Shown here piece after piece: positions 1-51,897 of a DNA stretch of 64,000 bases. Source of the DNA: Cymbomonas tetramitiformis (lineage: Eukaryota; Chlorophyta; Pyramimonadophyceae; Pyramimonadales; Pyramimonadaceae). Numbering within the stretch: the stretch's first letter is position 1; every line of letters starts with the position of its first letter. A model generated the notes under the pieces. The model saw only the letters and a list, made by a program, of their open reading frames with translations, did not search any database and was not told the DNA's origin. The stretch spans positions 1-64,000 of the forward strand of contig LGRX02010106.1 in NCBI GenBank assembly GCA_001247695.2. Direction: 5' to 3'. Position numbers and translations under genes: made by a program.

Positions 1-109
1 GCGTTGGGAGGATATATAATCCTCAACCACGCGCCCTTCCAAAGTTGTAGTTTTAGTCTTCTTTGTTGTCATATTACATACGTTGCCGTATGTGCATGAG
101 GGTTTGGAG

Positions 110-650
110 GCCGGTGGCTCGGGAACGCGTGTTAAGACTTGTGCTCGACGCGCACCCAGAGCCGCGGCGAACCTTTATTCGTGGGAATGTCTGCCGGCCA
201 GTGGATCGGGAACGCGTGTTAAGACCTTGTCTCGACGCGCCCCCAGAGCCGTGGTAGGACGCCCAAACCAGGTCATGTTGTTCCTTGGTTCTTCGCAACT
301 GTCGGTGTCGCAACTGTCGGTTTCTTCAACATGATTGTGTTTGTACATGATGTAAAAAGTACATTCTGTAAATAGTATCGAGTCTCCCCTTGCCTGGGTT
401 GTATTCCCTTACAGCATGTTATTTCTTCTTTGGAAATGCACACGTGGGTCTTTCCGGTGTCCTTCTTGAAAGTGTCTAACAAGCCTGAAGGGGGAGTATG
501 TTATCTCCGGACAGAAGCCTGGACGGAGAGGATGTTACCTCATGTAAGTATCGGGAAGGCGTGTTAACACCTTGTCTCGACGCACCGCCAGAGCCGTGGT
601 TGGACGCCCCAACCAGGTCATGTCGCTCCTTGGTTCGGTCGGTCCTTCGC
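110..650. repeat. Three dispersed copies of a ~100-bp GC-rich repeat
   Basis: A block with the core GGGAACGCGTGTTAAGAC and the downstream words CTCGACGCGC and CAGAGCCG occurs near 116-170, 199-300 and 549-645. The last two copies are longer and also share a downstream stretch containing CCAGGTCATGT. The copies are direct and separated by unique sequence. They lie upstream of the kinase gene; no ORF here looks coding. The first 40 bases contain a separate palindromic repeat word that recurs at 2364-2798. Confidence 0.6.
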
Positions 651-874
651 AACCGTTCCTGTTGACTAGTCAGTGCTGGCTGTGGCATTTCCTGCGGAAG
701 CGCTGTCCATTGTTTTTGAAAATCCGGCGGAACCTACGGGTATTTTCCGGTTGCCGCCCTGGTCCTGGTGGGCCGTGCTGGAAATCACTGGAAAGGGGTG
801 GGGATATGTCCTATTCCTAGTCCGCCGAGGGCGCAAAGAAAAAACCCAGGCGCTCCACCGCGAGTCGCCGGAGA

Positions 875-2041
875 ATGAAAAAAATCAATGGAGCTTCGGC
901 GCGGAGCGCTGCCTTAAACGCCATTGCCTCGATGGCCGAAGCTCAGGGGAAAGTGGCGCCGCCGCGCACCCTGTTCGTCGGACCTTGTGTGGACCATTGG
1001 GCTGATCTCACGGCATCGGATAAGCGGCAGTCGTTATGCTCCCGGTTCGACGACCCGGCAGTCCTGCGCGCGCTGGCGATGGCATGCGGAATTGGGGAGG
1101 TTCGGCATGCAGCCATCCGATTCAAAACGGCTTTGGGGGAGGCAACCGATGCTCGAGGCGGGTACGGGAAGCTGAAGATCGGGTGCTCCCTGAACCAGAC
1201 TCTCCCCTTGACTTACAAGGAGTTCAGCCGGAGCAGTTTCACGCGAGGTCAGAGGTTCATGGAGTGTGCGCGGGAGTTGTACATGGCTACCCTCGCGTGG
1301 CGGGAGGCACATGAGTTCGTGGCGCCTCCGCAGCACTTTGGGATTCGCCTGAAGCCAGGGTCGGAGTGTGCTCCCATCCCGTTCCTCATGTTTGGGGACC
1401 ACGGGGTCTCCCTGGAGCGGTTCTTAGATTCTCCAACCTCCCCGCTATCCCTGGCCTTCAAGAAGCAGCTGTGCCTCCGGCTGCTCGGCGGACTACGCGA
1501 GCTACACGGAGCAGGCATTGCGCATGGAGACCTGCGGGCAGGCAACGTCGTGCTCTGCCCTACCAGGCCAGATAGCATGGTGTTCATTGACTTCGGATTG
1601 GCGCGTCGAGAGCACCGAGCCGGCCTGCCGGTCGACGGCTTCCACAGGGAGCGCTGGGCCTCGGCGGCGCCCCTAAACCAAGCGCCAGGGTCGGTGTATG
1701 CCCCCGAGTATTCGCGAACTGGTCCCACTGCCGCGACGGATATGTGGGCGGTGGGAGCACTGCTTGTGCGGATCTTCATTCGTGATCCGCACGACGGGCT
1801 GCGAGGGGTTTCCGACGACGACAGCAAGCGAACCGTGCCAACTGTCATCACGGGCCGGGTGCAGACTGAATTCGTGGCCCAGAGCCTATGGTGGTTGATA
1901 CTGGACTGCTGCCAGGAAGATCCTGGGAAACGGCCGTCAGCAGCCAAGCTTGCTGCGGCCTTGGAGGCCACGCGCATCGAGTCTGAAAGCAAACTGGTTC
2001 CTGCAGACCTACCTCGATGTTGGTCGAAATATCAGTTGTAG
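875..2041 (+). CDS. Serine/threonine-type protein kinase, element 1 cargo
   Basis: This intronless ORF of 388 codons starts at an ATG. It has the landmarks of a eukaryotic-type protein kinase: a glycine-rich turn GGYG (residues 95-98), a candidate ATP-binding Lys115 in TYKEF, an alpha-C Glu134, a catalytic loop HGDLRAGN (217-224), the metal-binding DFG (239-241), APE (276-278) and a following Asp289 in DMWAVG. All key residues are present, so it should be active. HGDL instead of HRDL is shared with the paralogue at 21117-22235, which sits at the same place in element 2. TGTAA overlapping AATAAA at 2140-2148 is a plausible poly(A) signal about 100 bp past the stop. Substrate and role are unknown; a link to transposition or host signalling is inference only. 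Confidence 0.85.
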   Translation: MKKINGASARSAALNAIASMAEAQGKVAPPRTLFVGPCVDHWADLTASDKRQSLCSRFDDPAVLRALAMACGIGEVRHAAIRFKTALGEATDARGGYGKLKIGCSLNQTLPLTYKEFSRSSFTRGQRFMECARELYMATLAWREAHEFVAPPQHFGIRLKPGSECAPIPFLMFGDHGVSLERFLDSPTSPLSLAFKKQLCLRLLGGLRELHGAGIAHGDLRAGNVVLCPTRPDSMVFIDFGLARREHRAGLPVDGFHRERWASAAPLNQAPGSVYAPEYSRTGPTAATDMWAVGALLVRIFIRDPHDGLRGVSDDDSKRTVPTVITGRVQTEFVAQSLWWLILDCCQEDPGKRPSAAKLAAALEATRIESESKLVPADLPRCWSKYQL

Positions 2042-2353
2042 GAGTGCATGATCCAAACCGCAACAGTTAGCCCGAGCTGCGAGGAAACCTGCAATGAGTT
2101 GCCGGGGTAGAGTAAGACGTAACACGTACTACTCTATTTTGTAATAAAAAGAGTATCTTCCTTGCTGGGCACTGTACAAATTGTGTACGCCAGCCACCGT
2201 GACTGCTGTACAACTCTGTTTTGTTTGTGCGTTGTGCCTAGGCTAGCTCTTTCGGCTTGCTCATCGCTGTGAATGATGGCGCTGTGAGATAGCTCCTCTT
2301 GTTACACGCACCGTCGTTTGCTGTTTACAGAAGGGTGGTGTGCGGCGCTTGCT

Positions 2354-2800
2354 TGCATGGGTGCGGTGGGAGGATAGCTCATCAACCACGCGCCGGTAGC
2401 AGGTTGCCTGGCTCTGTTTTTGTTGTTTCTTGAAGACGTCCCTTGTTTCCTTGCACTTGGGTCTGCGGAGGCAGTAGGCTGCGATGGGAGGATAGCTCCT
2501 CAACCACGCGCCCTGTTCCCGCAGGCAAATCGGATCTGTAGTTGTGTTGTGCGGCGCTTGATTGCATGGGTACGGTGGGAGGATAGCTCCTCAACCACGC
2601 GCCGGTAGCAGGTTGTCTGACTCTGTTTTGTTGTTTACTCAAGATGTCCCTTGTATCTTTGCACTTGGGTCTGCGGAGGCAGTAGGCTGCGATGGGAGGA
2701 TAGCTCCTCAACCACGCGCCTTGTTCCCGCAGGCAAGTCGGATCTGTAGTTTTGGTGTCTTGCGCTTGCTTGCTTGCTTGCGGTGGGAGGATAGCTGCTT
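2354..2800. repeat. 209-bp tandem repeat with a palindromic core
   Basis: Two direct copies of about 209 bp (2364-2572 and 2573-2781) are followed by the start of a third. Each copy contains two instances of the word GGGAGGATAGCTCCTCAACC followed by ACGCGCC, spaced about 120 and 90 bp. The word contains the hairpin GAGGA-TAGC-TCCTC. Another instance at 7-38 reads GAGGATatataATCCTC. The array sits between the kinase and the next exon and shows no convincing coding potential. Confidence 0.7.
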
Positions 2801-2908
2801 TAGAGAAGGGGTGCTGGGTGGAACACGCAGCGGGAGAGTGGTGTTCCAATATGGTGCACCACCTACCCTTCGGCGGATAAGGAGTCTTTGCACACGGAAT
2901 CCTTTCAG

Positions 2909-3757
2909 GCTCGCCACGATGTGCTCCTGGATCATCACATCTTCGTGGGCAAAGGAACTGCTGAGACCATGGGTGCCCTTGACGTAGCCATCGCCGAGGT
3001 GAAGCAGGCAGTGAGCGCCGCCATCTGGAAGGCGCTGGATGGGGAGTATCGGGGGATTCTGGTTTGGATTGCTACCTGCCATGATGACATGAACTCCTAT
3101 GCGAACGCGGTGGAAGCGTTGCGCACGATGGAGCAGGCGATCCCCAAAGAGTCCACCAGGACGTGTGTACGTACCGGCCAGTTAAAGACGCAGAGGAAAT
3201 TGACGAGTGTAGCTTGGGAGAAGCTGATAAAAACTGTCAGCAAGGGGTGGAAGCTGGCGCAGTCGGCTTTCGAGGACCCTGCGAAGCTTCCAGAGTTTGA
3301 GAACATGGAGTTTGAAGACCTGCGGAGCTTCTTGGTGGTACGCCTACGGCTCTGGCAGGAGATGGCGACCAGGGGCGTTCAGGAAGTATCTGCGGCATCC
3401 AATTTCCATATGCAGCAGTGGGGTGCGCAGGCGGCGACGCTTGAGGAGTACGAGCCCTACCTTGCGGTGAAGGGGTTGTTCTCCGACAGTCTGGCTGTTG
3501 GGAAAACCCCGGTTATTGTTGCGCCGGATGCCCGTTATACGGTGGATGCGACCTGGCCAGGACCAGCGCAACAGGATGAGGGGAGCGCCCCGGCTCGTCT
3601 ACGGCTGGTACTGGAATACATGCATTCGTTGATGATGACAGGACTGGAGGGGATAGCGGAGAGGCATGGGTGGCGCGAATCTGAGACGGTCACGCAGTTC
3701 TACTATTACCCGGCCTTCATTGGGCGCATGGAACCCAGATACTGCACAGGGACATAG
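2909..3757 (+). CDS. Unknown protein, element 1 cargo (probable exon)
   Basis: The open frame runs from 2888 to 3757, but the frame begins with TTG rather than ATG. A good acceptor (CTTTCAG) ends at 2908, so this is best read as an internal exon from 2909. The roughly 280 residues are mixed alpha-helical, rich in Trp, Glu and Ala, with no family I recognise. The next frame (3769-6606) is open just upstream of its first ATG and lies in a different phase. The two could therefore be exons of one gene or be separated by a frameshift; a CAG acceptor at about 3750 allows either. No counterpart is seen in element 2. Confidence 0.45.
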   Translation, partial: ARHDVLLDHHIFVGKGTAETMGALDVAIAEVKQAVSAAIWKALDGEYRGILVWIATCHDDMNSYANAVEALRTMEQAIPKESTRTCVRTGQLKTQRKLTSVAWEKLIKTVSKGWKLAQSAFEDPAKLPEFENMEFEDLRSFLVVRLRLWQEMATRGVQEVSAASNFHMQQWGAQAATLEEYEPYLAVKGLFSDSLAVGKTPVIVAPDARYTVDATWPGPAQQDEGSAPARLRLVLEYMHSLMMTGLEGIAERHGWRESETVTQFYYYPAFIGRMEPRYCTGT

Positions 3758-3768
3758 CACCCGATTCC

Positions 3769-6606
3769 ATGGAGGCCAGGCTGGGGATGCAGCCGGTGCG
3801 AGAAGAGTCGGGCATCCATACCTTTTCGGCTCTGCTGTGCCTCGACGACCAGGCCTACACTGAGGTGATGCCTGAAACTGTTGCGTCGGAGTATGCCGAT
3901 GGTCTGCCAGCGGCATATCAAGGATATCCCACCAGTCACCCTTTCCAGCGTGCTCGCCTAGGTGGTGGTCCGGGGTGGTTGATGATGTGGCCGGCCACCC
4001 ACGTTGCCCACCGGGGTGTGTGCCCGGGCAAGAATTTTCCTTCCGTGGGGGACCCTGTACACACGGGCCACCCACCGCGCCTCCCTCATCAGCGGTCACT
4101 GTCCCTCTGCATCTTCGGTGCGGTGACGGTGCTCCCAGGGGGGGTGATTGACCTCATGAACACCGTGGACACGTTGCCTCACCAGGTAGAGGAGATGTAT
4201 GGCCTACCGGTCCGCATGGTGTGCTTCGCGTGCAGGGAGGCTATCGAGTTCCAGGGGAGCTACTCAAAGCTTCCCCGGGTTTACGCCTGCAAGTATTGCA
4301 TGCATGCCATCGAGCACACCGATCTCACGCAATTTGGGCACGTCATGTGCGGCAGCTGCTACGACCACCGGCAGTCAGCGCAGCCTGCTTTGCTGCCGCC
4401 GCTTCGGACGCACGAGCTGCACCCTTACCAGCCTGCCGACCTCAGCAGCTTTGAGCCCATGTCCCCAGAGGAGGCCAGAGCGCGGGCTGTTCTGAACTTT
4501 GCGGATGTGGCCACGGTGTGCAAGATGTTCAAGACAGCCTTTGGACAAGCCGCCAACCTCAACGATAGCGAGCGCGCCGGGCTGGCAAATCTGCAGTTCG
4601 GCCTTGGAGCACCGCAGCCAGCAGAGAACCAAGCTGTCGACCTGTTGGATACGCTTGTTCAGGGTTCAACGGTCTCCGGCTTCCATGAGCATGACATCTT
4701 CCAACGGATGGGAGCAACTTGCCCGACGGCCCAGGCTGTTACGTTTGCGGTGTGGGTGGCCGCCCGAAGAACATCACCGGCTGACCAGCAGTCCCAACCA
4801 GAACAACCAGTGCTGCGGGCGGGTGAGGAGCCACATCCGGTCCTCCAGGTGCTTGACGACATAGCATGCGGTTCGAGTGAGGGCCAGGAATTGCAGCATC
4901 TGACCGCGGACACGCATCCGTCATCACCTAACGATGTTGGTCAAAAGAAGAAGCGGAGGCGAAGGAGACGCAACTCCAAGCCTCCTTCCGCGTGGTGCAG
5001 AGATTGGACTCGGGCCTGGGAACGCCTTAATAAACCTCGCCAGCAGGCACCCCCGCGCCAGCTTTTTGACAAGGATGGCATGCTGGATCCCACGTTGGAA
5101 TCCCTGATAGCGTGTCCCGGCACGGATTTCGCTCTGAAGGTGGCCGCTGCCATCACCCACAACTGGGATGATGCCACACCAGCGTTCGCATGCCGGTGCA
5201 CGTGTGTGTTTGCGCGTGGTGTCCGAAAGCGCACCGAGCCTGGCTGGGATGGTGTCCACCTCCGCATGCGTCCAGTGGGCCCCTGCCTGGGAGAGCTGGC
5301 TGCTGCGCCTCCTCCTGAGACTGCGGCAATGCGCGGGGCCGCGGCGCGTCCCGCAGTTCCGGCGGCGTGCGAGGCGCCGGCAACAGACGTGAGCGGGGAT
5401 GGTGAGGCCACACACACACTTGCCGCAGCGGAGGGCCCCTGCCTGGGAGAGATGGATGCTGCGCCTCCTCCTGAGACTGCGGAAATGCGCGGGGCCGCGG
5501 CGCGTCCCGCAGTCCCGGCGGTGTGCGAGGCGCCGGCAACAGACGTGAGCGGGGATGGTGAGGCCACACACACACTTGCCGCAGCGGAGGGCCCTGCCTG
5601 CCTGGGAGAGATGGATGCTGCTCCAGCTCATGGCCTCGCGTCGGCGGGTGTTGTTGGGCTGACTGCACCTACTTTGGGAACCGAGCACAACATGGTCACC
5701 GTTTTCGGAAATGACACCGTGGTGCATCACGTCTATACACACATCGCGTCCCCATTCCATGGTGCATCCATGCCCGTGATATTGGACTTGGCCACCACGC
5801 ACCCGCTTCGGGAGTATCACGTGCTCAGCACGTTGCCCGAATATTTGACGCTAACAGCACAAGGACAATCCCAAAGAACGGTCGATTTGCGAATGCCGAA
5901 GGCGCGTCGCTTGCTCACGCAAGTACAACCCGGGAGAGAAGAGGGGTTTGCGTCCCTCTTGGAGATTGAAGACTACCTGGCGGAGGCTGGGTTAGAGATT
6001 CGTGACGTTAAGGCCGATGGTGATTGCTGGCTTCGGGCGATCTGCCCGTACATCGACGGAATGCACAGACTCACGCGCAACGGTCTTGAATACCGTGTAG
6101 TGAAGCTGCGTGACGCCGCGCGGGATTTCCTGAAGCAGCACGCCGCGCAACTTTTCCCTTGGCATGATGCCGCCACTCCTGATACACTGCGCAGAAAGAA
6201 AGGCAGCAGTGAGCATGAATGGATGCTGGTGCTTGCGGCCATGGCCAGACGGGTGATTCAGTGTTACCGGATTATTCCTCCAGCCGACATTCGGATCATC
6301 CTGAATGAAATTGAGCAGGGGTCAGCAGGAACAGCACTGAATGTAGCGCCTTTCAGCATGATTCATTTCTGCCCCCCAGATGACATCCAGCTCGAGAGCA
6401 GAGTGCCGATCCGGGTTCTTCATTTCGTGCCCGTGGATAAATACCCCGGCCACTGGATGCGCATCGCGCCGAAGGATGAGCTGGAAGAGGAGGACGGAAA
6501 ATCTGCAACCCTGGCGGCGGCTGCAGCCCTGGTGGCGGCGCGGGCTGACGCACCCAAGAAGAAGAAGGGGGGCAACGTCAAAGGCGGCGTCAGGGAAGCG
6601 TCGTAG
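3769..6606 (+). CDS. OTU-family cysteine protease with zinc-binding and repeat regions, element 1 cargo
   Basis: This is a 945-residue protein. The C-terminal third is an OTU-like deubiquitinase domain: ADGDCWLRAI gives the Asp and nucleophile Cys753 (codon at 6025), EHEWMLVLAAMARR matches the central helix, and GHWMRI supplies the catalytic His895. Around residues 144-205 three CxxC pairs (CFAC, CKYC, CGSC) suggest a treble-clef zinc module. A run of Lys/Arg near 4945-4975 looks like a nuclear localisation signal. Residues about 504-610 are two tandem copies of a 53-residue unit. The first ATG is used as start, but an upstream exon is possible. Removal of ubiquitin or a related modifier is inferred from the family; the target is unknown. 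It is absent from element 2. Confidence 0.75.
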   Translation: MEARLGMQPVREESGIHTFSALLCLDDQAYTEVMPETVASEYADGLPAAYQGYPTSHPFQRARLGGGPGWLMMWPATHVAHRGVCPGKNFPSVGDPVHTGHPPRLPHQRSLSLCIFGAVTVLPGGVIDLMNTVDTLPHQVEEMYGLPVRMVCFACREAIEFQGSYSKLPRVYACKYCMHAIEHTDLTQFGHVMCGSCYDHRQSAQPALLPPLRTHELHPYQPADLSSFEPMSPEEARARAVLNFADVATVCKMFKTAFGQAANLNDSERAGLANLQFGLGAPQPAENQAVDLLDTLVQGSTVSGFHEHDIFQRMGATCPTAQAVTFAVWVAARRTSPADQQSQPEQPVLRAGEEPHPVLQVLDDIACGSSEGQELQHLTADTHPSSPNDVGQKKKRRRRRRNSKPPSAWCRDWTRAWERLNKPRQQAPPRQLFDKDGMLDPTLESLIACPGTDFALKVAAAITHNWDDATPAFACRCTCVFARGVRKRTEPGWDGVHLRMRPVGPCLGELAAAPPPETAAMRGAAARPAVPAACEAPATDVSGDGEATHTLAAAEGPCLGEMDAAPPPETAEMRGAAARPAVPAVCEAPATDVSGDGEATHTLAAAEGPACLGEMDAAPAHGLASAGVVGLTAPTLGTEHNMVTVFGNDTVVHHVYTHIASPFHGASMPVILDLATTHPLREYHVLSTLPEYLTLTAQGQSQRTVDLRMPKARRLLTQVQPGREEGFASLLEIEDYLAEAGLEIRDVKADGDCWLRAICPYIDGMHRLTRNGLEYRVVKLRDAARDFLKQHAAQLFPWHDAATPDTLRRKKGSSEHEWMLVLAAMARRVIQCYRIIPPADIRIILNEIEQGSAGTALNVAPFSMIHFCPPDDIQLESRVPIRVLHFVPVDKYPGHWMRIAPKDELEEEDGKSATLAAAAALVAARADAPKKKKGGNVKGGVREAS
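5278..5640 (+). repeat. Coding tandem repeat, ~159-bp unit, in the OTU gene
   Basis: Two nearly identical in-frame copies of about 159 bp (5278-5437 and 5438-5593) are followed by the first residues of a third. Each unit encodes a Pro/Ala/Glu-rich stretch beginning CLGE and ending AAAEGP. High similarity indicates a recent duplication within the linker ahead of the protease domain. Confidence 0.8.
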
Positions 6607-6879
6607 GGCGCGGTTATGTGTTGATATCACCACATCAGGTGACATGCATGCACCCCCGTCTGCGCTTGCGGAGCTTGATGAACCTGGTCTCTGTATTCTC
6701 CACGTGTAGGATGTGTGTATCCTGGTGTAGGCATGGGGCATGTCATGGTAGTAGTGTCACGTATCACGTATGGGGCGCGTCACGTATGGGGGCATGTCAC
6801 GTGTGTCTCCCCGACTATGCTGTGGCGGCAAGGGGGGGTGCTTATTATGTACGGCGTGGTCGCATGCACGTGTCCTCAG

Positions 6880-7873
6880 GTACACATTGATTATGATCGT
6901 CCGATCAAGCTGCCGGGCACACCGTACTCAGTCATCTTCACCCGGGCTGCTATGGTGCAAGCTAACCAGGCAGCTTTTGGCAAGAAGAAAGTGTCTGCAC
7001 GCCGTAGCTTGTGTTGCTATTGCTATCAGAAGCCTGCAATAGCCAGGTGTGACCGGTGTGAACTCGCAGTGTATTGCTCAGTAAAATGCCAGCAATCGCA
7101 CTGGAAGAACCCGCCACCAGACGCCCCCTCCTTACGAAAGCACAGTGGCAGCTGTATTCCAAAAGGGCAAGAACTTAATGTATTACGGGCGACGGAGGCA
7201 GCTCCTGCCGGCACCCGAAGGACGCATGGTCCTTGGACGAGCCCGAGGACGAGCACCGTGTCACCGGCGGCGACCGTACAATGACAGAGTAACACTTAGC
7301 GCGTATCTATTTGCTTTTAATACTAATTCGTGGGTCTTCCGTGCGCACAACATGCCTTCCCCCGTGATTGCTGTTCATCCGTGCATTGTTTTCCGGTTGG
7401 CCTGTGCTAGGTCTTGCGGGTGTGCCAGCGGGCTTTACCCATCGCTTATAGGCTGGTGCGTGTGGCAGTTGGAATGGATAAACTCGGAAACCGGGAAATC
7501 CTTGCCTGTCAAACTGGACTGGGCAGTCACCCTGGAGGACAGCAGATTCGTTTCGCCGCCCTGGTGTATTCAAGGCAAGATTGTGAAATTTGACCCACAG
7601 CATGTATGGACCCCGGCACCGACGGATGAGGTTCCCGAAGGCTCCTATGACAGGGAATACGAAAACAGACCACCGACCGGTTACGTCGTGGTAAGGTTGT
7701 ACGACAAACAGGCGGTTGCGGAATGGGGCCGGCACTGTGCCTTACGGTGGGATGAGTATGCCGCGATTGTGGAGTCAGAGAGCCAGCGGGGTGATATCCC
7801 GGCCATCACTGATCCGTCGGATGCGGAGGAAGATGACTACGTTAGCGAGACTAGTAGTGAGAATGAAGACTAA
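6880..7873 (+). CDS. MYND zinc-finger protein, element 1 cargo (two exons inferred)
   Basis: The first exon is taken from 6880, after a CCTCAG acceptor. It encodes a MYND finger: CCYC, then CDRC, then YCSVKC and HSGSC, giving paired ligands CxxC, CxxC, CxxxC and HxxxC with codons from about 7012 to 7155. MYND fingers mediate protein-protein contacts. A phase-0 donor AAT|GTATTA at 7180 and a phase-0 acceptor ending at 7468 would join a second exon (7469-7873) with a Trp-rich domain and an acidic tail ending SSENED. The splice pair is my inference. The true start may lie in an unseen upstream exon; the first in-frame ATG in this exon is at 6952. No copy is seen in element 2. Confidence 0.6.
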
Positions 7874-8354
7874 AGTAAAAAAGATTACATTATGTTATTA
7901 CATTAAGTTCTGATTAATGCATTAACTTGTGTTACGCACGCACCTTCCTGATGCATAGGCTTGTCGACTTGCATGGTTACGGCATTGCAGTGGAGTGGGT
8001 TCTGCCGTGAAGCACGCCGTGACATACAGAGGTCGATGGATGGCATGCCGCTGCTTAACGCACAGCAATTGCGCCTGCGGAAGAAATTGCAACGGTAGAA
8101 TTAGAGCGACTAGATTACAGGTGCTAGATGCCCGGTGGAACATATGCGGGTGGAGTAATGAACGGACGCACGTAACAAAGGCATATAAATCACACTCTGA
8201 GCATCCGCATCGAGCATATTGTTCATGTAGCGCGACTCAGGTGATATTGTGCATCAACATCGGGCAAGTTCTTTGTGCCGCGCGAGTCGTCGAACGGTAA
8301 TCTCGTCATTGTTACCACTGCCTACTTTGCATCCCTTGGAGCCCCTGGTCACAT
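7874..8354. other. Spacer between MYND gene and gene X of element 1
   Basis: About 480 bp without a convincing gene. A 5' exon of gene X is expected here by analogy with element 2, where the first exon is separated from the second by an intron, but I could not fix its splice sites. No repeat or structured RNA is evident. Confidence 0.4.
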
Positions 8355-21116: not shown

Positions 21117-22235
21117 ATGCTTTCCCAGGCGGCAGCGCAAGATATTCATGCCGCACCCCACCACCACCTCAACACACCTCTGCAGTTTCCTGGTTTCCAT
21201 CACGACCTATCGGTGGAATCCCTTTCAAAACGGTTTCTGAGTGGAGATCCGGATGCATGCCTCAGCAATCTTGACAAAATTGCTAAACAGTGTGGAGTGC
21301 CAAGAGTCTCACGCCAGCAAGTAGTCACGTACCGCGCTCCTCAGGACAGCCAAGCTACAGGACAAGGCTCCTACGGAAGCGTCCTTCTACACTGCACCCT
21401 TGACAAAACCGAGAGGGCCGTTCTGAAGGACTTCACCGACCCTGCCCTCCACCGTCGCCTGCGGCACTGTGCGGTGGAGTTGTATATGAACACCGTGGCC
21501 CATTTCGCGGCTCCCACAACCGTCGTTCCCTGTTTAGGATACGGAGCCCAAATTTGTCCTGATCACTCCGCGTTCCTCGTCATGAAATATGGCGGGGAGA
21601 CCCTCGCCGATTTCCTTACTTCCCGCGGATCAGGCATACCAATCCAGGCGATGCGCCATCTGGTCATCGATTTGTTTCGCGGCATTTCAGACCTCCATGC
21701 CGCGGGAATCGTGCACGGGGACCTGAAAGGTAACAACGTGCTTGTGCAAGAAAATCTGCCCGATGTTGGTGGACACAGTCTCAAACTCATAGACTTTGGG
21801 TTGGCCCGTTTCCACCGCACCGATTCAATGGCACCGCTTCCCCCAGTAAGCTTGCCTTCCGCAACATGGCAGCCCTCTCATACAGCTCCAGAGTCATCAT
21901 TTGCAAACAAAACCACTCACAGCGACATCTGGGCGTGTGGCGGGCTCGCTATGCAAATACTCATGGCCAGTCGCCTTTCCTGGAAGGACATGCTGCAGTT
22001 GGCTAACAGCCAGCTTGACAACAACAGAAAATTTTCGCCTTGGAAAGAAGATAGTAGAGTTTCCAAACAGCTCACCATGCTCGTGAATTCGTGTTTCGAC
22101 TTCAATCCTGCAAAAAGACCGGCTGCCTCCAAGTTACACTCAACGTTCAGCGCCTCTCGGATACAAAAGTGTTCTGTGGGGAAAGGAGTCGATCCCCACG
22201 AGCGTTTAGTCCCTGGACATTTTAACCCTCTGTAA
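21117..22235 (+). CDS. Serine/threonine-type protein kinase, element 2 cargo
   Basis: This intronless ORF of 372 codons has a complete kinase core: glycine loop GQGSYG (residues 82-87), Lys104 in VLKDF, Glu121, catalytic loop HGDLKGNN (200-207), DFG (226-228), APE (257-259) and Asp270 in DIWACG. It is the positional and sequence counterpart of the element 1 kinase; shared stretches include ELYM before the hinge region and IDFGLAR. TGTAA at 22266-22270 may be the poly(A) signal. Conservation of every catalytic residue in both elements suggests selection for activity. The substrate is unknown. Confidence 0.88.
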   Translation: MLSQAAAQDIHAAPHHHLNTPLQFPGFHHDLSVESLSKRFLSGDPDACLSNLDKIAKQCGVPRVSRQQVVTYRAPQDSQATGQGSYGSVLLHCTLDKTERAVLKDFTDPALHRRLRHCAVELYMNTVAHFAAPTTVVPCLGYGAQICPDHSAFLVMKYGGETLADFLTSRGSGIPIQAMRHLVIDLFRGISDLHAAGIVHGDLKGNNVLVQENLPDVGGHSLKLIDFGLARFHRTDSMAPLPPVSLPSATWQPSHTAPESSFANKTTHSDIWACGGLAMQILMASRLSWKDMLQLANSQLDNNRKFSPWKEDSRVSKQLTMLVNSCFDFNPAKRPAASKLHSTFSASRIQKCSVGKGVDPHERLVPGHFNPL

Positions 22236-22474
22236 ATAATAATCAGTGTGTGTAGCGCGGTAGTTTGTAATAATAAGTGTCCCTGTATACAATATATTAC
22301 CGTCTGGCCGAAAGTCTTGGTTGTGGTAATGCCCGTGTTGTGAGCAACTGTTGATTAAAGTGTGGTCATAGTCACTCTGTGCAATGTTCTGCGTGGTGCG
22401 TGTTCTCGTATTTGGTACAGATAACCCATAGCCGATAACCTTACTGGTTACACAACTTGGGTTCTGCTGGTCAG

Positions 22475-23758
22475 GTGAATGTCGTGCGAAGCTCGTTCAT
22501 CCCGGCTCAACCTGATTGGGTCTGCCCTGATGACAGCCTTGCCGCGCTCAAGGGGAAGGTGGTCTACCGAAAGCTGATGCCTACCTTCCGATACCATGTC
22601 GGGTTTGTCTGTCCGGGCATTCCGGAGGGTCTGCATGTCCTAGACTTGAACACCGTCCGGACAATCTGCCTACTGGAAGCACTGTGGCAGGCGAAGACCG
22701 CCAAGGAGGGCCTGCCCGGGGACCGTCCTTCGAAAGAGGCTGCAATGCAGTTCCTCATTGATAACGACACCCACCTCCGCAAGCATGATCACCACCAACA
22801 GCGGGTGCTGGATGAGGCTTTCGCCGGTCACAGCCTGGTATCCGTGTTAGAAGTCGATTCTAGAAGGGACGATTTCAGCGCCCCGCATCACTTCTACGCA
22901 TGGTTCGTGGTTCCAGCCAAGCGGGTCTGGCTCTTTCCAGTACTGTCATTTCCGTTGCGCCACCACCGTGGAACTGTGTATGCCGTAAAGGACTGCGATC
23001 TATCGCGTGGCCGTACTCCCAAATGCGGGTCACGTCCGGTTCCACACCAGCACCCCGGGTATCAAATGTTGCATATCCAGGGCGTTTCTTCCAGCAGTGG
23101 CAACGCAGATCCCCGTTGCCTGTCAGTGCTCGTCCTGGATGCTCAGGCTGCGCATGGCGCGGACTTCAAACCAGAACACCGACAAACGATTCAGAAAGTT
23201 TTGACTGCCTGTCGCCATGCCAACATCCCTATCAATTGGACACAGTGGTATCGGCCATGGCAAACGCAGGCCGCCACAGATGCATTTTTTGATGATGGAA
23301 GAGGATACTTGACCTCTTCAGCCGGTGTCGCTCACACCGGAATTCCGCCAGAGTCCGACGATTTTCTGACAGACCTTGGGCCACATTCAGCTGACGAACT
23401 ACGGAACCACGCCTTTCTGTGTGGGAACATGAATGCGTTCGACTCGGAAAACATATCCATGTCTCACGAGTCCTGCTATAGAAACGTGCGAGATGCGGTG
23501 TCTTCTCAACACCCAACACCATCAGCAATTGTTATCATGGGGGCGTATGTCTCACAGTGTGTGCTGCACACGACCCTTGCGGCGGTGCAATTGGGATACA
23601 GTGTTATCATCGTGGAAGACGCATGTGTGTCATATAGGACCCTGCACAACATTGAGCCGAGTAACTTGGCTGCCACGCTAGACGGACACATGGATCTCCT
23701 GCATCGGTGTGCAGTGGTGTTAGATTCTGCCGACTTCATTAAGAACATCTCGGTATAG
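22475..23758 (+). CDS. Isochorismatase-like cysteine hydrolase with a novel N-terminal region, element 2 cargo
   Basis: Open frame to a stop at 23758. The C-terminal half matches the isochorismatase fold: LSVLVLDAQ supplies the Asp, IPINWTQWYRP matches the strand after the first helix, VIMGAYVSQCVLHTT carries the nucleophile Cys, and GYSVIIVEDA closes the sheet. With residue 1 at 22457 these are Asp228 and Cys368. The usual catalytic Lys, expected before the (S/N)AF motif, appears replaced by Cys in LCGNMNAF, so activity is doubtful. The first 215 residues are unrecognised. The frame opens with TTG; an exon starting at 22475 after GGTCAG is likelier, and the first in-frame ATG is 22577. Element 1 lacks it. 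Confidence 0.7.
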   Translation: MNVVRSSFIPAQPDWVCPDDSLAALKGKVVYRKLMPTFRYHVGFVCPGIPEGLHVLDLNTVRTICLLEALWQAKTAKEGLPGDRPSKEAAMQFLIDNDTHLRKHDHHQQRVLDEAFAGHSLVSVLEVDSRRDDFSAPHHFYAWFVVPAKRVWLFPVLSFPLRHHRGTVYAVKDCDLSRGRTPKCGSRPVPHQHPGYQMLHIQGVSSSSGNADPRCLSVLVLDAQAAHGADFKPEHRQTIQKVLTACRHANIPINWTQWYRPWQTQAATDAFFDDGRGYLTSSAGVAHTGIPPESDDFLTDLGPHSADELRNHAFLCGNMNAFDSENISMSHESCYRNVRDAVSSQHPTPSAIVIMGAYVSQCVLHTTLAAVQLGYSVIIVEDACVSYRTLHNIEPSNLAATLDGHMDLLHRCAVVLDSADFIKNISV

Positions 23759-24337
23759 TTATTATATTTTAGTTACAACAAATATATTTACATATTATAT
23801 TAGCAATGTGTATATAGATACATATTATACTAGCACAATCGATCAAGATCTCCATTAGGCCGTAATTGATCGTGTTGGCCATGTAAGTCATCATGCAAGC
23901 GTGCATACCGGATTACCGATGACGATTCGTTTGCGATGACAGTTTTCCGTTCACGATTCGTTTTCGTTTCATGAGTCTTGGCATCGCTGCGCATCGGCTA
24001 AAAATTTGTGTTCTTTAGGGTCCACCCCTGCTATTTGAATTTATAGCTTGTTTGCAAGACACGCGACAATTTCCCTTCGATCATCACTCACGCTCACGTC
24101 GATCATGTTCATCCCATCAGAAGTATCCCAAACCTGGTGTTTTGCCATATGATATGGCCTGCGTACTACGTGTTTACAAATAGTATACATTTCTACTAAT
24201 TATTATTAGAAATATATAGCATAATTAGAAATAGTTAACACGAACATTTCGACATGTTATATGATACGGCCTGCGTACTACGTATTTGTACATAGTATGT
24301 AAATTTTTGGGCACGTGATGGGGCCTCGCAGGGTACA
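23759..24337. repeat. AT-rich spacer with a ~110-bp imperfect duplication
   Basis: No gene is seen. The first part is rich in TATATT. Words GGCCTGCGTACTACGT with flanking TATGATA occur at about 24150 and 24260, within two copies of a unit that also contains CATAGTAT-like sequence. Between them is an inverted AATTATTATTAG/ATAATTAG stretch. Confidence 0.5.
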
Positions 24338-26700
24338 ATGGATTATGGGCATCGACCTGGGGTTGTGCCCCTAACCCGGCATGTGCACTTTGCCCCAAGC
24401 CATATTCCACGAACGAGCGCGGCGGAGACGGAACCGCCGCAGCAGACCGAGAGCGGTGACATTTCCGCAGCGTCTTGTACGCTGCCGGCGGAGGGAGCCA
24501 AACCAAATGCAGTAAAAGGTACCCGTTGCTTTCATGCGATGCCTTTGGCCCCATGTTGTGCACAACCTGTGAAGAAGCCCCCTCTTCTCACTCCCAATGA
24601 TCCCCTGATGATCTTACGAATACCCTGATGTTCACGCACTGGTGCTCGAATCAGGAAAAAACCGTGTGAGAAAGGGAGGTGGTCCACATATGAAAGTTGA
24701 AAGTGTTATACGGAAATGCCCCGTGGCATACGACGTGGAGGCTAAGCAGATTGTGGACAAAACCACGAGTAAGTATTGGGCAAACAACGCCGCGGCCCAA
24801 GAGCGTTTCGACATGTGCGTGAAAACGCTGCGAGAGCTGCATCCCGAGCTGGATGAAGCCACTGCAAAAACGAAGATCATTCGACGTCTGAACAACCGGC
24901 GTAATCTGGGCCCAAAGGGCACCACAATCGAAATGCGTCAAAACCGTGACATCCAGGCGGTGAACGCATTCAACAAAGAATCCCAGAAAAAACGCCCGGA
25001 CTTGGTGATTTCCCTTACTGCATGTGCAACAGAGGTTGTTGGGACACCACCACAGGCGAGCCCAGGCGTACGCCCCGCAGCAGGAGCGCCACTAACGGCA
25101 ACCGAGCCTCGGCGGAGCCCACGAAATCACGCCACGGTTAGTATACCCGCAGGACCAGAGGTGGCCAGGACTCCGCAAAGGGGGAGCCCAGGCGTACGCC
25201 CCGCAGCAGGAGCGCCACTAACGGCAACCGTGCCTCGGCGGAGCCCACGAAATCACGCCACGGTTAGTATACCCGCAGCACCAGAGGTGGCCAGGACTCC
25301 GCAACGGGGGAGCCCAGCCACTGCAGGAGCGCCACAACCGGCTACTGTGCCTCGACGGAGCCCACGAACTGCCGCCACGGTTACTGCACCAGCACCAAAG
25401 GATGCCAGGGCACCGCATCGGGGGAGCCCAGGAGCGCGCTCGGAACCAGGAGTGCCACTAAAGGCAACCGTGCCGCGACCGAAAGCAAGGGCACCGGAGG
25501 TGACGGAATATGAAGAGCAGAGGCTGATGAAGATTGCTGGTAGGTGCCCTATCCATGTGTGCCCTTGGCATGTACACATACATGGATGCATACCTGCAAA
25601 TGTACCTGCATCGCCGACGGAGCGTTGAGGAAGCGCTGGGGGCGGGTTTGCTTATTGCGGTGTCAGGCAACAAGCGCAGGCTGAGCGTAGCATTCGGTAT
25701 GGTTCCAACAGCATACGAGGACTTGATGCGGGAAAAGCAGGTGCTACTCACGCAAGTTCAACAGTTGGATGAAAAGGTATTGATTGAGCACGTGCAGCGC
25801 GTAGCGCGGGAGACTCGGAAACGAGTTCCCATGACAGCCCAGGCCGTCTTCGAGGTGGTACCGATGCCCGGGTATAAACTACTTGGAACGCAAAATGGAA
25901 CGGAAGGATGGCAGCAGGAAGCTCTGGGGGAGTTGCGGGAGCAGTGGACTAAGGACCTGCGAAAACGCGCCAAGAAGTGTCCGAGTCTGACAGCTGCTTT
26001 CAAAGTGAGTGTGTCTCAGGCGAACACGCAGAAAGCGACAGCATCTGTTGCACCGCGCCCCAATCGTGCAGCTCGAACGGTGCAAAGCATGGCGGAGGAT
26101 GCCGATGACGACGAGGATGACATGTGCAAGGTGATCCGAACCGGAAGGGGGCTACTCACGAAGAGAATGTCGATGACCGCGACGGCAAAACGTAAGTGTA
26201 TGGTAAAAGTGCACACCGATGAGGCAATCGAAGCTTTCGAGACCGATTCGCATGCCACGTTTGGTGACTATTTCGGGGCGGTGGTGAACGATATGCACGG
26301 TACCGAGCGAGAGGTTGATCTCCACGTGGGGAAAACGGTGATTGAACACGAGACCATCGGCGCAGCAGCACAATGGCGCAGGATGGGATTTCCTGAGATA
26401 ATGCGATGCCACCTAGTAGCGGCGGACGCCGGAGATGAAGATGGCAGGGTGGAGCCACTGGCAAGGTTCGACTACAGTATTTTCCACGGCGACTTTAAGG
26501 TTGAGTCTTGGACGTTCGAGGAGCTGGTTGGCATGCAAATGAAAGTCGTTCCTGCTATCTCGGTGAAACGGAACTACGAGGTTGCGTGGAGGGACGAGGC
26601 TGGTTTGGAACGCGGCGTGTTGACCGCGGCAGAGTGCCGTGGTCACTTCGGCATGGACCGGATTCCAGCGCTGCGCACGCGGCAATTTTGGACGCCATAG
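24338..26700 (+). CDS. Gene X of element 2: conserved transposon accessory protein
   Basis: Three exons fit: 24338-24518 (starts ATG, MDYGHRPG), 24655-25539 and 25667-26700. Both introns are phase 1 (AAAAG|GTACCC to ATCAG|GA; GCTG|GTAGGT to TGTCAG|GC). The second intron matches that of the element 1 copy. The protein has a basic helical N-terminal region (residues about 70-140), a Pro/Arg-rich tandem repeat, and a C-terminal domain with PEIMRCHLVAADAGDED and FDYSIFHGDF. I recognise no family. A DNA-binding or TnpA-like role is inferred from its pairing with the transposase in both elements. Confidence 0.65.
25040..25480 (+). repeat. Coding minisatellite in gene X of element 2
   Basis: About four in-frame copies of a unit near 126 bp encode RTPQRGSPG, APLTATVPRRSPR and HATVSIPA blocks. 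The third and fourth copies are shortened or diverged. The unit is unrelated to the repeat found at the same place in element 1. Confidence 0.8.
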
Positions 26701-27282
26701 CCCTGTGCGGAAAGATAAGGAAGGCGTCTGGCCTGGAGCAGTGTGAACAGTTGGCAGTAGTTTATATTGGACGCACCTTGACGCCGTGCCTTCCTCATAT
26801 GCTGCCTGCTGTACGTAAGAAGTAGCAGGCAATCATAGTTATGCCAGGGCAGAATGAATACACCGCAAAGTGCTTACCAATCCGTGGGGAAGGAGCCTGC
26901 CTTCAGCAGAAGTGGGAACCTGTAGACTCAAGTTTTTGTTTGTGAATAGTAAGGACAACGTTTGGACCTTCCTGCCTTTTTTTAATATAACTGGAATTGT
27001 GAAATAGTAAGTGCTGACAGTGCTCTAATGGAGCGGGGCACATTGATTGCAAATACAGGCAAACAGTTCGAGAGTCGCCTGAATGTCACATCCGTTGCTC
27101 GTGGCTCGATGGAGCCCACAAACTCACGCCACGGTTACTGCATCAGCACCAGGGGTCGCCGGGGCACACCAACGGGGTGGACCAGGAGTGCATTCTGCAC
27201 CAGGATGTACCTAATGTATCATGGAACCGTGTTGAGGTGTGGCATCTGCGCAGGAAAACAGGAGTGCTGGGCATCGGTGATG
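26701..27282. other. Spacer with a displaced copy of the gene X minisatellite unit
   Basis: About 580 bp between gene X and the transposase. The stretch near 27110-27190 (GAGCCCACAAACTCACGCCA and what follows) resembles one unit of the array at 25040-25480, out of its coding context. The ORF beginning with ATG at 27028 runs through it, so that part is probably not the real protein start. Confidence 0.5.
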
Positions 27283-30200
27283 TTCACGGAGGACGAGCTC
27301 ATGCTGATTGTGCAGCGGAGCCAAGAAGCTCACACCAGCATACGAAGCACAATGCGTGCGGTGCGTGAACTACCTGCAGAATGTCGAGGCCCTATACCGG
27401 CTGGCGAAAAAGAAGTGCTGGCGGTGATTAAATCCTGGCTAACGGAACATGGGGGGACCATAGACAATCGGTATCGTGTGATCTTGCAGCCAATGCTTTT
27501 GGGGAATGGTGTTACCAGCAATGCTTTTGGGGAAGCTAACCCGTCAGCAAACAGCGATTGTGAAGTACATGGACTCCCTCCTAACGTGGAGGTCTTCTTC
27601 GACGAGGAGCTGGCGAAAGGCCGAATTTGTCTAATGGACAACCTTGAGGAGGAGTCGGACGAGGAGGACCATGGAATAAGTGTGCAGAAACTGCTAGATG
27701 CAGCTGAGGACGCCCCGGATCCAGAGGACGAGGTCACAAGTATATTCCAGCAGGTAGTTGCCAGGCCCCCATGGCCACCGATCGATGTGCCACGCTGTTA
27801 GTTTAAGACTACTCGCTTCCTGATACTGACGACCATTTGGTGTTCACTTGCCATTGGATGTAGATATTCCAAGAACACAACTGCCAGGAAGAAGATCTGT
27901 GGAGCGATGCCGCCTGGGAGCTGGAGGCATTGCTGCCTGAAAAAACGGAGCTTAACTTCAACGCGGCGGCCGGTGACCCCTTATTTGTGGGGGATACGGA
28001 GGCCGACTGCTTGACAGTGGGTGAGGCGGTCTGCTACTTTATGGAGCTGCGAAGGGCGCAGAATTGGTCGAGGCCATCATGTGATAGGTTTTTGACGGTC
28101 ATGATCATGCTTATGGGGGGACCCGGAAAGTGCAATCTTCCTCGAAGTCTGTATAGAATGAGGAAGTTTTTGAACACCAGGTCGCACATGGACCACGCGG
28201 TGCATGTATGCGTGAATTGGTGCCGACATTATCCCCCAGGCGAGGATCCAAGCTCTTGGGACAAGAACCAAACCTGTGACACCGTACTAGAAAAGGACTC
28301 TGAGGGTGGCGCGCTGCGTACGTGCAAGGAGAAACGGTTCGAGGTGATACGCACCGTGCATGGAGAGGAGATCCGTCCACGGGATTGGTATTATTACTTT
28401 GCACCGGAGCGCACTATACGACGTTGGATGCGTGACCCGGAGTTCTGCAAGCTACGGGCCCGGCGGGATGCCCGCACTGGACGTGACTTCTGGACGGCAG
28501 CGCTGGCCAAACACATTGATCACGTCACAGGAGGTGCCTTGCTATCGCCGTCATCGTTTACAGCTGAAGATCCTCCTCCGCAGGGGGGGGATCCAGGTGT
28601 GGAGTACGCGGAGCACCGCTCGATGGTAATCTCGCCCGGGGCGGACGACGCCCAATTATGGGTCTCTGACATCGGGTGCGACATCGGCCGGCACAGTTGC
28701 TGTAGTGTACTGATTTCACTGTTCCTTTGTGTAAATATAGTGAGAAATGTTTTTATTGCGAGCAGGTCATACTCCATGGGCGTTGGTGTGCTTAAGTGCG
28801 ATGATCTGCATATCACGGTACGCCCAATCAGAATGTCGATGCAGTGACGCGTTGGTTGGCCTATGGGGTGACAAAGCTTGAATGTAGGCAATACAGTGAG
28901 ACGCACACACACACAAACACACACACAAACACAGAACCACAGGATGGATTCATGTGTGCGAGTAGATTCCATGATTCATGTGTGGAACAGTGCATTAGCA
29001 ATCATGTTCATCGCATGTATGTGTAAGCAAACCCAAACTGGATGCTTGCAGGCTCGGCAACGTGACAAGTGGCATCGGAATCTGTGGATCACACGCGGCC
29101 CTCGGCAGAAGGAGAAGAACCCTCTTGTGATATGGGGGCAATTTGAAAGGGATATGCAACGCCTTGCGACGGGATTTGACGTGTACGACAGTTTCCTCAA
29201 AAGGACTTACACGTTGAAAGTATTCTTAGGAATGGTGCATGCGGATTCGGTGATGCGGATCACAATGGGGCAGTTCATGGGAGTCGGCAGCTACCGGGCG
29301 GATGCGTACAGCCTTTTCGAAGGGACGAGCGGCCCCGGCGGGAAGGGAATGTATTTCAAGGGGTATGCCAAGCCGGTCAAACTACAAATGACAACAGTGC
29401 AGGGAAAACCTGAGGTATATGCCGATGAACAGCTGCTCATGCTTTCTAAAGAGGGGCATGCAGCGTTGGTTTCGAGAACCATTCATGGAGGGGAATCCCC
29501 GCAATCTACTGGACGGCACGGGCGTGGCGCGCTCGAGCGAATCCCATACTTCGACCCCATGCATGGTTACGCCGTCCCCTTCGGCCACTGCGTCTTATAC
29601 GGGGTGGTGAAGAGATTTTGGAAGCTGCTGATGGGCAAAGTGACAGGGGTACCCGACTCAACCTTAACTTTGCCTAAGACGATTCAGGACGAAATGCAAG
29701 CTCGGGCGAAGCTCGTGAAACCTCCGCACGACGTCATACGCAAGTACAACGATATAGTGCAGTATTTCGGTGAGTGTACGAAGTAGGCAGAGCAGGGACG
29801 TGTGCCACTTCTTGATGCAGTTTCCGTTGTTGAGCTTGCTATGAGAGGCGTTAGGAGACCTATGCGTAGAATGTCTTATACTAAAGCACCTTGTTTGATC
29901 CTGAGTGACAGGCATGTACACAATGGAGGATGTCCTGAACTGGGTCGTCTACTTCAGCCCATTGGTGATCGGTGATCAACTCGCAAAATGTAATATGGCG
30001 ATGGAGGATGCCTGGCAGCACCTTCGCCGAGCCGTGCTGCACTATGTGCGAGCTTCGGGCACGCACACTGGGTGGACTACTGCGGACGTGGAAGCAGCTA
30101 GAGTCGCAGCACGCGAACACCTCCGGGAGCACGCAAATATCCTGGAAAACACAGGTATAATGAAGCTGCTGACATACAACTTGAGGCTGGCAGTGGTGTA

Positions 30201-31011
30201 CCTGTTTCGGCAAGAACACTATTTGGGTGAGGTTGGTGCCGCCATGGAGATGTGGGTGGAGCGTGCCATCCAGCGTCTAAAGGGTGTGGCAAAGGATACG
30301 CACGTGAAAAACCGACCTGTGGAAGCTCTCGTGAATTCTATATGTGAGGACGATGCCCTAGATGACTACTGTTACAGATATCCAAACTTGCGCAAGTTGG
30401 ATGTCTTGGCGGCAAAGTTATTTGGCAAGATCGCTGTCAGCCGTGCAACGGATCCCGCGGCAGAAGATGAGGATGCGCCCTGCTATTTTCTGGGCGCAGG
30501 GAGGCACCTATCTCCCACAACTCTTTCATGCAACCTTCGCCTGCAACTTGATGGTCTGGTGTCAACTTACACGAATGTAATGCCTGGGGATTATGAAATC
30601 ATGGTCTACCTCAGGATGTCCCTAGACAAGGAGGTGATGTTTTCTTCCCAATACATGCGAACCACCAAGCGAATCTCCTACCACGTGTCTCTCTCTGGTA
30701 CCGTCAGTGGGTTTGGCGAGCTAGGTCTGCCAGCAGGCTACCCTTACGCACAAATTCTTGCATACTACCTTGTGAGAAACTCTGCAACACAGCGGGTGGT
30801 GTGTCGCCTAGCACGGGTCGTTGCATACAGAGAAGTCGAAGACGAGTACTACGCAAAGCAAGGGGTAACGGTGGTGGACAAACAGAACGGTGTAGAGCTC
30901 ATCGTTCCATGTGCCGCCATCCTCACGAAAGCCATGTTTCTTGATCGCCCTGGCAGTCAGCACTACCACGTCATGCACCTGTATCATCAAATACGCACAG
31001 GCAGTTACTAA
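27283..31011 (+). CDS. Tnp2-like (CACTA/EnSpm-type) DDE transposase of element 2
   Basis: Exons: 27283-27753 (ATG chosen where similarity to element 1 begins; 5' end unsure), 27864-28675, 28766-28817 (52 nt), 29052-29769 and 29912-31011. All introns have GT..AG ends and the same phases as in element 1. Tnp2 landmarks are HAVHVCVNWC, the IRRWMRDPEF block, GADD, SYSMGVGV, TRGPRQKEKNP, VYDSFLKRTYTLK, HADSVMR and, after a TYNLRLAVV helix, WVERAIQRLKG. Candidate triad: an Asp in GADD, Asp at 29244-29246 and Glu at 30259-30261. An acidic stretch closes the first exon. No internal stop or frameshift is seen, so the gene may be functional. Confidence 0.75.
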
Positions 31012-31189
31012 TGGGACCACCGGATTCACCTTATCATACCCAGCGCAGCCAGCTTCCAACATCGTCCAGTAAGTTGAGCAAACCTTCTCTGAAGTATTGC
31101 CCAATAGCCTTAGTAGCAAATGTAGAGGAGCACGTGTGTGGAGCCAGTGAAGGACTTTCTCATACAGTATGCACCAATGGCAGAGCTGC

Positions 31190-31771
31190 AAATTAGGGTT
31201 TCCTATATATCTAGCCAATAGCAGTGCACCGTGCCTATGGTTTCCTAAATATTGGACCAATGAAATAGCTGCAAATTAGGGATTCCTAGATATCTAGCCA
31301 ATAGCAGTGCACCGTTCCTATGGTTTCCTAAATATTGGACCAGTAAAATTGCAGTATATTAGGTTTTCCTAAATATCTAGCCAATAGCAGTGCACCGTTC
31401 CTATGGTTTCCTAAATATTGGACCAATAAAATAGCAGTATATTAGGTTTTCCTAAATATCTAGCCAATAGCAGTGCAATGTGCCTATGGTTTCCTAAATA
31501 TCTAGCCAATAACAAAGCAGTATGCCTCAGATTTCCTAAATATGACAGCGGTTTTATATTATGTCATTTCCCTAAAACTTGATTTATACGGATATATATA
31601 TTTACCTTGTCCAATCACTATTTACCCAGCTTTAGGAGGACCCAATGTTTACATACAGTAAGGTTTATACTTAAGTATGTGTCATAATGTCATATTTAGG
31701 AGATTTTAGTAAAACTTTAGGGAAACTTTAGGGAAACTTTAGGGAAATTTAGGGGATTCTTTGTTCAAGTG
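31190..31771. repeat. Right subterminal repeats and terminus of element 2
   Basis: Between 31190 and 31560 an imperfect tandem array repeats CCTAAATATCTAGCCAATAG, GCAGTGCA and GGTTTCCTAAATATTGGACC words. At 31706-31755 three ACTTTAGGGAA units and an ATTTAGGGG follow, and then the inverted terminal repeat ending at 31771. CCAAT and TAAATAT words are shared with the right end of element 1. Confidence 0.7.
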
Positions 31772-51892: not shown

Positions 51893-51897
51893 GCCTA

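Follow-up and report, generated by a model that had tools for sequence, protein, structure and literature searches.

In Cymbomonas tetramitiformis, a 64,000-base stretch of DNA (bases 1-64000 of contig C7995, which has 83,667 bases; hereafter the window) opens with two neighbouring elements, Element 1 (E1) and Element 2 (E2). We judge it quite probable that these are very large, presumably autonomous cut-and-paste transposons of the CACTA/EnSpm type, in which an accessory kinase and the genes of an adjoining slot serve the element. This reading is carried by the duplications found around E2 copies, by transposase models that read open, by a gene order common to E1, E2 and a diverged E2 subfamily (E2b, on contigs C15777 and C11876), and by purifying selection between E2 and E2b. 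Copies were sought in the genome assembly, which comprises 851.7 Mb in 25,745 contigs.

Both elements read, on the plus strand, kinase, then genes that differ between them, then a conserved gene (gene X), then transposase. An earlier note on this DNA had proposed that order, and it was confirmed by Pfam, by 35% identity between the second gene X open reading frame (ORF) of E1 and that of E2 (E 2e-56), and by 56% identity between the two transposases, whose GT-AG introns lie at matching positions. Both transposase genes require splicing to give open frames, and splicing was modelled by homology, giving 893 open codons from four exons in E2, which likely has an additional 5’ exon. The two kinases match each other at 104 bits in phmmer; the best solved structure of a kinase matches that of E2 at 47.7 bits. 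The parts of the two elements are as follows.

1-16485 (+), E1, CACTA-type, left part beyond the contig start
821-2041 (+), E1 protein kinase ORF, Pfam Pkinase E 5.9e-11
2335-2799 (+), E1 tandem repeat, 208-bp unit
2804-6606 (+), E1 ‘unknown’ ORF (2804-3757) and candidate OTU-type ORF (3685-6606)
6682-7284 (+), E1 MYND zinc-finger ORF, borderline, zf-MYND E 1.4e-4, 22.2 bits against a cut-off of 22.7
8301-10819 (+), E1 gene X, ORFs 8301-9362 and 9785-10819
12273-15755 (+), E1 transposase, exons 12273-13141, 13327-13378, 13572-14313 and 14533-15755, 961 amino acids open, splice model by homology
16472-16485 (-), E1 right terminus, CACTACTAAGAATC reading inward
16486-16667 (+), E2 left flank, tail of a chromodomain-bearing retrotransposon integrase, Pfam Chromo on the joined flanks
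16668-31771 (+), E2, complete, 15,104 bp, with terminal inverted repeats; identical ends recur at other sites
16668-16678 (+), E2 left terminal inverted repeat, CACTTGAACAA
17908-20908 (+), E2 left subterminal tandem arrays, units of 38, 24, 127/251 and 100 bp
21036-22235 (+), E2 protein kinase ORF, Pfam Pkinase E 1e-27
22439-23758 (+), E2 isochorismatase-like hydrolase, domain at residues 246-400, Pfam E 5.3e-13
24612-26700 (+), E2 gene X, ORFs 24612-25628 and 25531-26700
27864-31011 (+), E2 transposase, exons 27864-28675, 28766-28817, 29052-29769 and 29912-31011
31170-31543 (+), E2 right subterminal 83-bp repeats
31761-31771 (-), E2 right terminal inverted repeat
31772-31887 (+), E2 right flank, remainder of the interrupted chromodomain, starting ATTTGATCAAAT

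The inverted 11-base ends of E2 (CACTTGAACAA) occur window-wide only at 16668 and 31771, with up to one mismatch allowed. About 56 bases of each end align at a score of 43, where 50 letter shuffles reached 24 at most, and the end coordinate of 31771 given earlier was right. Joined together, the flanks of E2 match an integrase tail with a chromodomain (Pfam Chromo E 1.9e-8), and E2 was therefore inserted in a retrotransposon. The end of E1 and the start of E2 are 182 bases apart (16486-16667) within this one integrase tail; these giant elements may prefer retrotransposons, or this spot, as insertion sites.

A genome search with the last E2 transposase exon, in which the best 111 of 2,023 candidates were scored and counts are thus lower bounds, gave 99 matches at 96-100% identity (window included) and 12 at 77%. 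We sampled the left halves of 20 E2 copies, picked by plus strand and contig position, located left ends in seven, and then read the right ends of those seven. Identical 3-bp flanks bracketed five of the seven (TAA, GAA, TTA, CAT and ACT), in support of the CACTA-like termini claimed earlier, and in all five the kinase and hydrolase were both full-length, with neither stop nor gap. Of the 20 left halves, 14 have a full kinase free of stops and gaps, one has a full kinase with gap letters, and five have none in the stretch; the hydrolase is full and free of both in 14, full but with one stop or gap in two, partial in one and missing from three. Eight E2 transposase loci (the window’s included) have the right terminus at the matching place with differing flanks, the terminus of one (L005) differing from the other seven in its final base. 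In 78 pairwise comparisons of 13 E2 sequences, namely the window copy and 12 of the 20 sampled, divergence was 0-0.5%, with a median of 0.22%. E2 has multiplied recently. Contigs C15585 (L029) and C25020 (L019) are identical over the whole fetched left flank, 856 bases, and differ in their right flanks, through either recombination between copies or an assembly join.

The two E2b contigs, read out of the 12 matches at 77%, carry kinase, hydrolase, gene X and transposase in the same order as E2, at 60%, 51% and 62% identity for kinase, hydrolase and gene X. For a single pair, E2 and the C15777 copy, we estimated the ratio of nonsynonymous to synonymous substitution rates (dN/dS) by the Nei-Gojobori method. 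It was 0.36 for the kinase (383 codons, dS 0.74), 0.39 for the hydrolase (426 codons, dS 1.06), 0.32 for the C-terminal part of gene X (336 codons), and 0.26 and 0.17 for transposase exons one and three. Within the hydrolase, residues 240-439 gave 0.26 and the N-terminal part 0.54. The kinase and hydrolase have therefore been constrained since the subfamilies split, as far as one pair can tell. The accessory genes of E2 look selected.

The left end of E1 lies outside the window, the contig starting at window base 1. Its right end, at 16485, is shared by copies on four contigs (C19858, C19859, C25368 and C18667) with three distinct flanks, C19858 and C19859 sharing one, and identity of the window to C19858 ceases exactly there. 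On C19858 the element runs from 6911 (CACTAGGAATAGG) to 30448, a copy of 23.5 kb with kinase, OTU-type and MYND genes; C19859 stops exactly at the left terminus CACTAGGAATAGG. The left end thus rests on two copies with a common right flank, one of them ending with its contig. The termini read CACTACTAAG on the right and CACTAGGAAT on the left. C19858 matches the window at 96% over 1-3728, at 97% over 8010-15656 and at 91-96% in shorter blocks over 6604-7884, has additional tandem repeat units upstream of the kinase, and holds its kinase match (13843-15060) and OTU match (16764-19619) within the element ends.

Genome searches with the E1 OTU ORF (best 47 of 3,520 candidates scored) and the E1 kinase (best 102 of 1,055 scored) placed the former on 45 contigs, in 67 stretches, and an E1-type kinase (at least 89% identity) on 58 contigs, among the matches scored. 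Both occurred on 33 of the 45 OTU contigs, with the kinase upstream on the same strand in 33 of 33, at a distance of 1,473-1,704 bp in 25, nearer in two and 3-20 kb away in six; the other 12 had no E1-type kinase among the matches scored. The cargo had been described as swappable. It does differ between E1 and E2, but it stays the same within each lineage examined: both E2b copies read have the hydrolase, and kinase and OTU ORF are linked on 33 of 45 contigs. On this evidence we reject free swapping. The cargo earlier listed for E1 also needed revision. Its ‘unknown protein’ is not a gene of its own. In the copy on C13226, residues 121-308 of the ‘unknown’ ORF share one frame with the OTU ORF, interrupted by one stop, while residues 1-161 match in a different frame; several further copies have frames of 1263-1376 amino acids around the OTU match, and in the window the two ORFs occupy different frames.

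The proteins themselves are identified with varying firmness. Both kinases are firmly predicted to be eukaryotic protein kinases, and by eye their translations carry what we take to be the catalytic lysine, HGDL(K/R)xxN, DFG and APE motifs. The isochorismatase domain of the E2 hydrolase, also claimed before, is a firm prediction (E 5e-13). Activity of the hydrolase is doubtful because, in the D-K-C triad that we assume for it, the D and C are present by eye and, where the lysine is presumed, E2 has C and E2b has S. The MYND assignment in E1 is borderline, just below the Pfam cut-off. OTU identity is weakly suggested by a Pfam match below cut-off (E 0.15), by OTUD3 as best solved structure (E 0.32), and by an N-terminal DGDC and a C-terminal GHW, presumably OTU motifs; an AlphaFold model of the stretch was uninformative (pLDDT, the predicted local distance difference test score, 33.4). 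For gene X, AlphaFold gave a mean pLDDT of 43.5, with residues 11-110 helical and block means of 59-90, and the E1 protein has a helix-turn-helix match below threshold (E 0.091).

A third transposase lineage lies beside the E2 copy on C7674 (L021, C7674:3223-13222), at 36-38% identity to E1 and E2. Upstream of it come an ORF of 843 residues that weakly resembles gene X (E 0.005), two MYND ORFs above cut-off (70.6 and 32.3 bits), and a stretch lacking a Pfam match that has a DGxC motif, which we take to be OTU-like. These ORFs hint at a MYND cargo type common to the third lineage and E1. The 102 kinase matches scored fall into 61 stretches at 89-100% (window included), 18 at 50-53% and 23 at 45-47%, the last two with open frames of about 380-540 codons; judged by these matches, there are at least two additional high-copy groups related to the transposon kinase, with examples at C2019:23913-25052 and C20651:135168-136343.

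A number of findings weigh against our reading, and we gather them here. Some concern the ends and the gene content of copies. One of the seven two-ended E2 copies, on C15585, is flanked by CAT and TGA, with no duplication, and the copy on C8814 has lost its right terminus. Three of the 20 left halves (L021, L026 and L027) are without kinase, hydrolase and the N-terminal part of gene X in the fetched stretch. The E2 copy in the window has no matching 3-bp duplication, with TCA on its left and ATT on its right. Its right flank starts with ATTTGATCAAAT (31772-31783), a perfect 12-base palindrome with TCA at base seven, and we suggest that a 6-base inverted repair trace, left by a one-sided cut, may separate a TCA duplication from the element. 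Pfam readings of the joined flanks bearing on this 6-bp filler were near-equal, at 36.0 and 34.6 bits, with a control at 30.8. The two ends of E1 are weakly alike (score 31, where shuffles reached at most 26), and its 3-bp duplication is unconfirmed, the flanks on C19858 being CTG and GAA.

Others concern the transposase. Neither the E1 nor the E2 protein matches the Pfam Tnp2 family (PF02992), and the only match to it, in an exon of the third lineage, falls short (E 0.012, 15.3 bits against a cut-off of 28.6). A published description of CACTA transposases, available to us as an excerpt, places C(2)C and H(3-4)H motifs between the second D and the last E (PMC12730594). CxxC is absent from the E1 and E2 transposase models and from the third-lineage exon. 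With catalytic residues placed by eye, HxxxH lies near its expected place in E1 alone, elsewhere in E2, and nowhere in the third lineage. Membership of CACTA/EnSpm rests on CACT(A/T) termini on both elements, the inverted repeats of E2 being firm, on the 3-bp target duplications of E2 (five of seven copies), and on a resemblance, judged by eye, to Tnp2 motifs. We call the elements CACTA-like because termini and duplication fit CACTA/EnSpm, whereas the C(2)C motif is missing and the Pfam model finds no match in E1 or E2.

The remaining points concern selection. In the recent burst (13 sequences), synonymous and nonsynonymous sites number 2 and 14 in the E2 kinase, 5 and 11 in the hydrolase, and 4 and 6 in the N-terminal part of gene X, so that changes within recent E2 copies look neutral, with no purifying selection. 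Comparing E1 in the window with its copies on C19858 or C13226 gave a dN/dS of 1.03 on eight changes for the kinase and 1.01 for the OTU ORF, with 0.71 for MYND, 0.48 and 1.08 for gene X and 0.29 for the transposase; in the compared copies a single stop interrupts each of four stretches, those of MYND, OTU, the C-terminal part of gene X and the transposase. A test of kinase dN/dS, proposed in the earlier note, therefore speaks for constraint between E2 subfamilies and not within E1. In E1, constraint seems clearest on the transposase, and selection on the cargo is unproven.

Those neutral-looking changes, in recent E2 copies and in E1 cargo, are what would be expected if kinase and hydrolase were passively captured host genes with no role in the element, in the manner of Pack-CACTA transduplication, a form of gene capture described in Arabidopsis and rice (PMC13317346, in excerpt). 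Yet most of the fetched E2 copies keep full-length ORFs, a related kinase is present in E1, E2 and E2b, and additional high-copy kinase groups exist, known from kinase matches alone; the purifying selection between E2 and E2b disfavours capture for E2, and we consider it unlikely overall. About as unlikely, and if anything slightly more so, is that the cargo benefits the alga, the elements being Starship-like carriers of host-beneficial genes: the genes are enzyme-type and stable within a lineage, but the many copies, diverged by 0-0.5%, speak for selfish spread.

A viral reading, in which these are decayed or endogenised elements of polinton-like or giant-virus origin with a CACTA-like transposase, deserves mention since C. 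tetramitiformis is reported, in the part of the source available, to be rich in endogenous viruses, some of its polinton-like viruses bearing a DDE-type transposase (PMC10675990), and a phage head-to-tail domain matches the first gene X ORF of E1 below threshold (13.1 bits, cut-off 27, E 0.073). In a Pfam scan of 19 window ORFs, no family for capsid, polymerase or packaging passed the cut-off, and CACT ends with 3-bp duplications also argue against viral origin. Pattern-based scans of IMG/VR, from which near-genome records may be left out, gave no relatives of the transposase, E2 kinase or gene X, and GTDB contigs gave none of the transposase; we reject a viral origin as very improbable. That two ordinary small CACTA elements have extra genes between them by chance, the refutation the earlier note had allowed for, is hardly credible and rejected, as the cargo of other copies lies within the element ends, inside identical ends at different sites for E2, where the idea is refuted, and no point in its favour was left after the genome copies were read.

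We return to accessory genes that serve the element. In CACTA elements a TnpA-like protein binds subterminal repeats and the transposase cuts the CACT ends. By position and by analogy with that biology, the transposase would cut at the CACT ends and move the element by cut and paste, and gene X may be the TnpA-like partner binding subterminal repeats; gene X is kept in E1 and E2, and such repeats are present in E2. With less support, the kinase might phosphorylate the transposase, the gene X product, or proteins of host chromatin or the cell cycle, and thereby time expression and excision of the element properly or let it escape silencing. Between kinase and gene X, the slot might likewise supply a second accessory activity against the same host defences, namely a putative OTU-type protease and MYND adaptor in E1 and an isochorismatase-like hydrolase in E2. 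We consider the slot genes as counter-silencing factors because an analogous argument has been made for TET/JBP (PMC12730594) and for VANC/Kaonashi (PMC13317346), in the excerpts available. A broader proposal, which we offer tentatively, is a giant algal CACTA clade whose kinase would act as a third core mobility gene, timing or permitting jumps, and whose adjoining slot would hold lineage-specific anti-silencing effectors (OTU/MYND or hydrolase). If the kinase does belong to the mobility core, eukaryotic cut-and-paste transposons can bring their own signalling enzyme, and a high-copy, near-identical family in one genome makes the idea testable. The E2 data offer CACTA-like cargo under purifying selection between subfamilies, by which accessory genes can be distinguished from captured passengers.

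Elsewhere in the window, an exon of a Der/EngA GTPase with a KH-like domain (61400-61891, minus strand; Pfam E 2e-16) is the sole clear host gene among the scanned ORFs; in algae and plants this GTPase is of plastid type. Four sets of direct-repeat pairs (38009-41353, 42040-45264, 46462-50058 and 45736-51893), 99-100% alike except for one piece at 92% and spaced 3.0-5.9 kb apart, bracket or contain long ORFs without a Pfam match. They look like gag-only long terminal repeat elements, one nested within another.

Among known systems, CACTA/EnSpm (CMC) transposons share with these elements inverted CACT(A) ends, a 3-bp duplication, subterminal repeats, a second conserved gene and an intron-bearing transposase, Tnp2-like by eye; the elements here differ in their 15-24 kb, their kinase and enzyme genes, the lack of a Pfam Tnp2 match and the missing C(2)C. 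Starships, giant fungal transposons with a core mobility module and variable cargo, offer a loose analogy: they are alike in joining core to variable cargo, and differ in having a tyrosine recombinase and being far larger. No description of kinase-bearing algal CACTA elements, of a constant CACTA kinase, or of OTU/MYND or isochorismatase slot genes was found among the titles and starts of abstracts listed from the open-access literature; to our knowledge, that literature does not include Repbase reports.

The published accounts closest to these elements were available as excerpts. Giant EnSpm families of Chondrus crispus span 16-20 kb with 4-5 ORFs (Kojima 2013 as cited in PMC6431247) and, compared by description only, are alike in size, ORF number and algal host, whereas that excerpt names no kinase or cargo. 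Fungal EnSpm, Plavaka and IS3EU transposons carry TET/JBP, thought to counter silencing, and TET-carrying IS3EU families also have an alpha-kinase (PMC12730594); the likeness is an EnSpm element with an accessory gene thought to be anti-silencing, and the difference lies in other accessory enzymes and in an alpha-kinase found in IS3EU, not EnSpm. Ubiquitin-like proteases occur on CACTA elements, as grapevine CACTA-ULP and rice Tnp2 plus ULP1 proteins (PMC2528002), and on the Kaonashi/VANDAL Mutator-like elements (MULEs), with an anti-silencing link for VANDAL (PMC13317346). Both set such a protease on a CACTA element or MULE, as E1 may with its candidate OTU protease; they differ in having ULP1 instead of OTU, and the excerpts name no kinase. 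The earlier view of protease cargo as unusual for CACTA/EnSpm was thus overstated, given the ULP precedents and the 16-20 kb EnSpm elements with 4-5 ORFs (PMC2528002, PMC6431247). Large multi-gene algal EnSpm elements, and EnSpm elements with accessory enzymes, are already in print, as far as these excerpts go; the nearest precedents are the TET-carrying fungal EnSpm and the 16-20 kb Chondrus EnSpm, beside which a kinase and OTU-type cargo within one CACTA element may be new.

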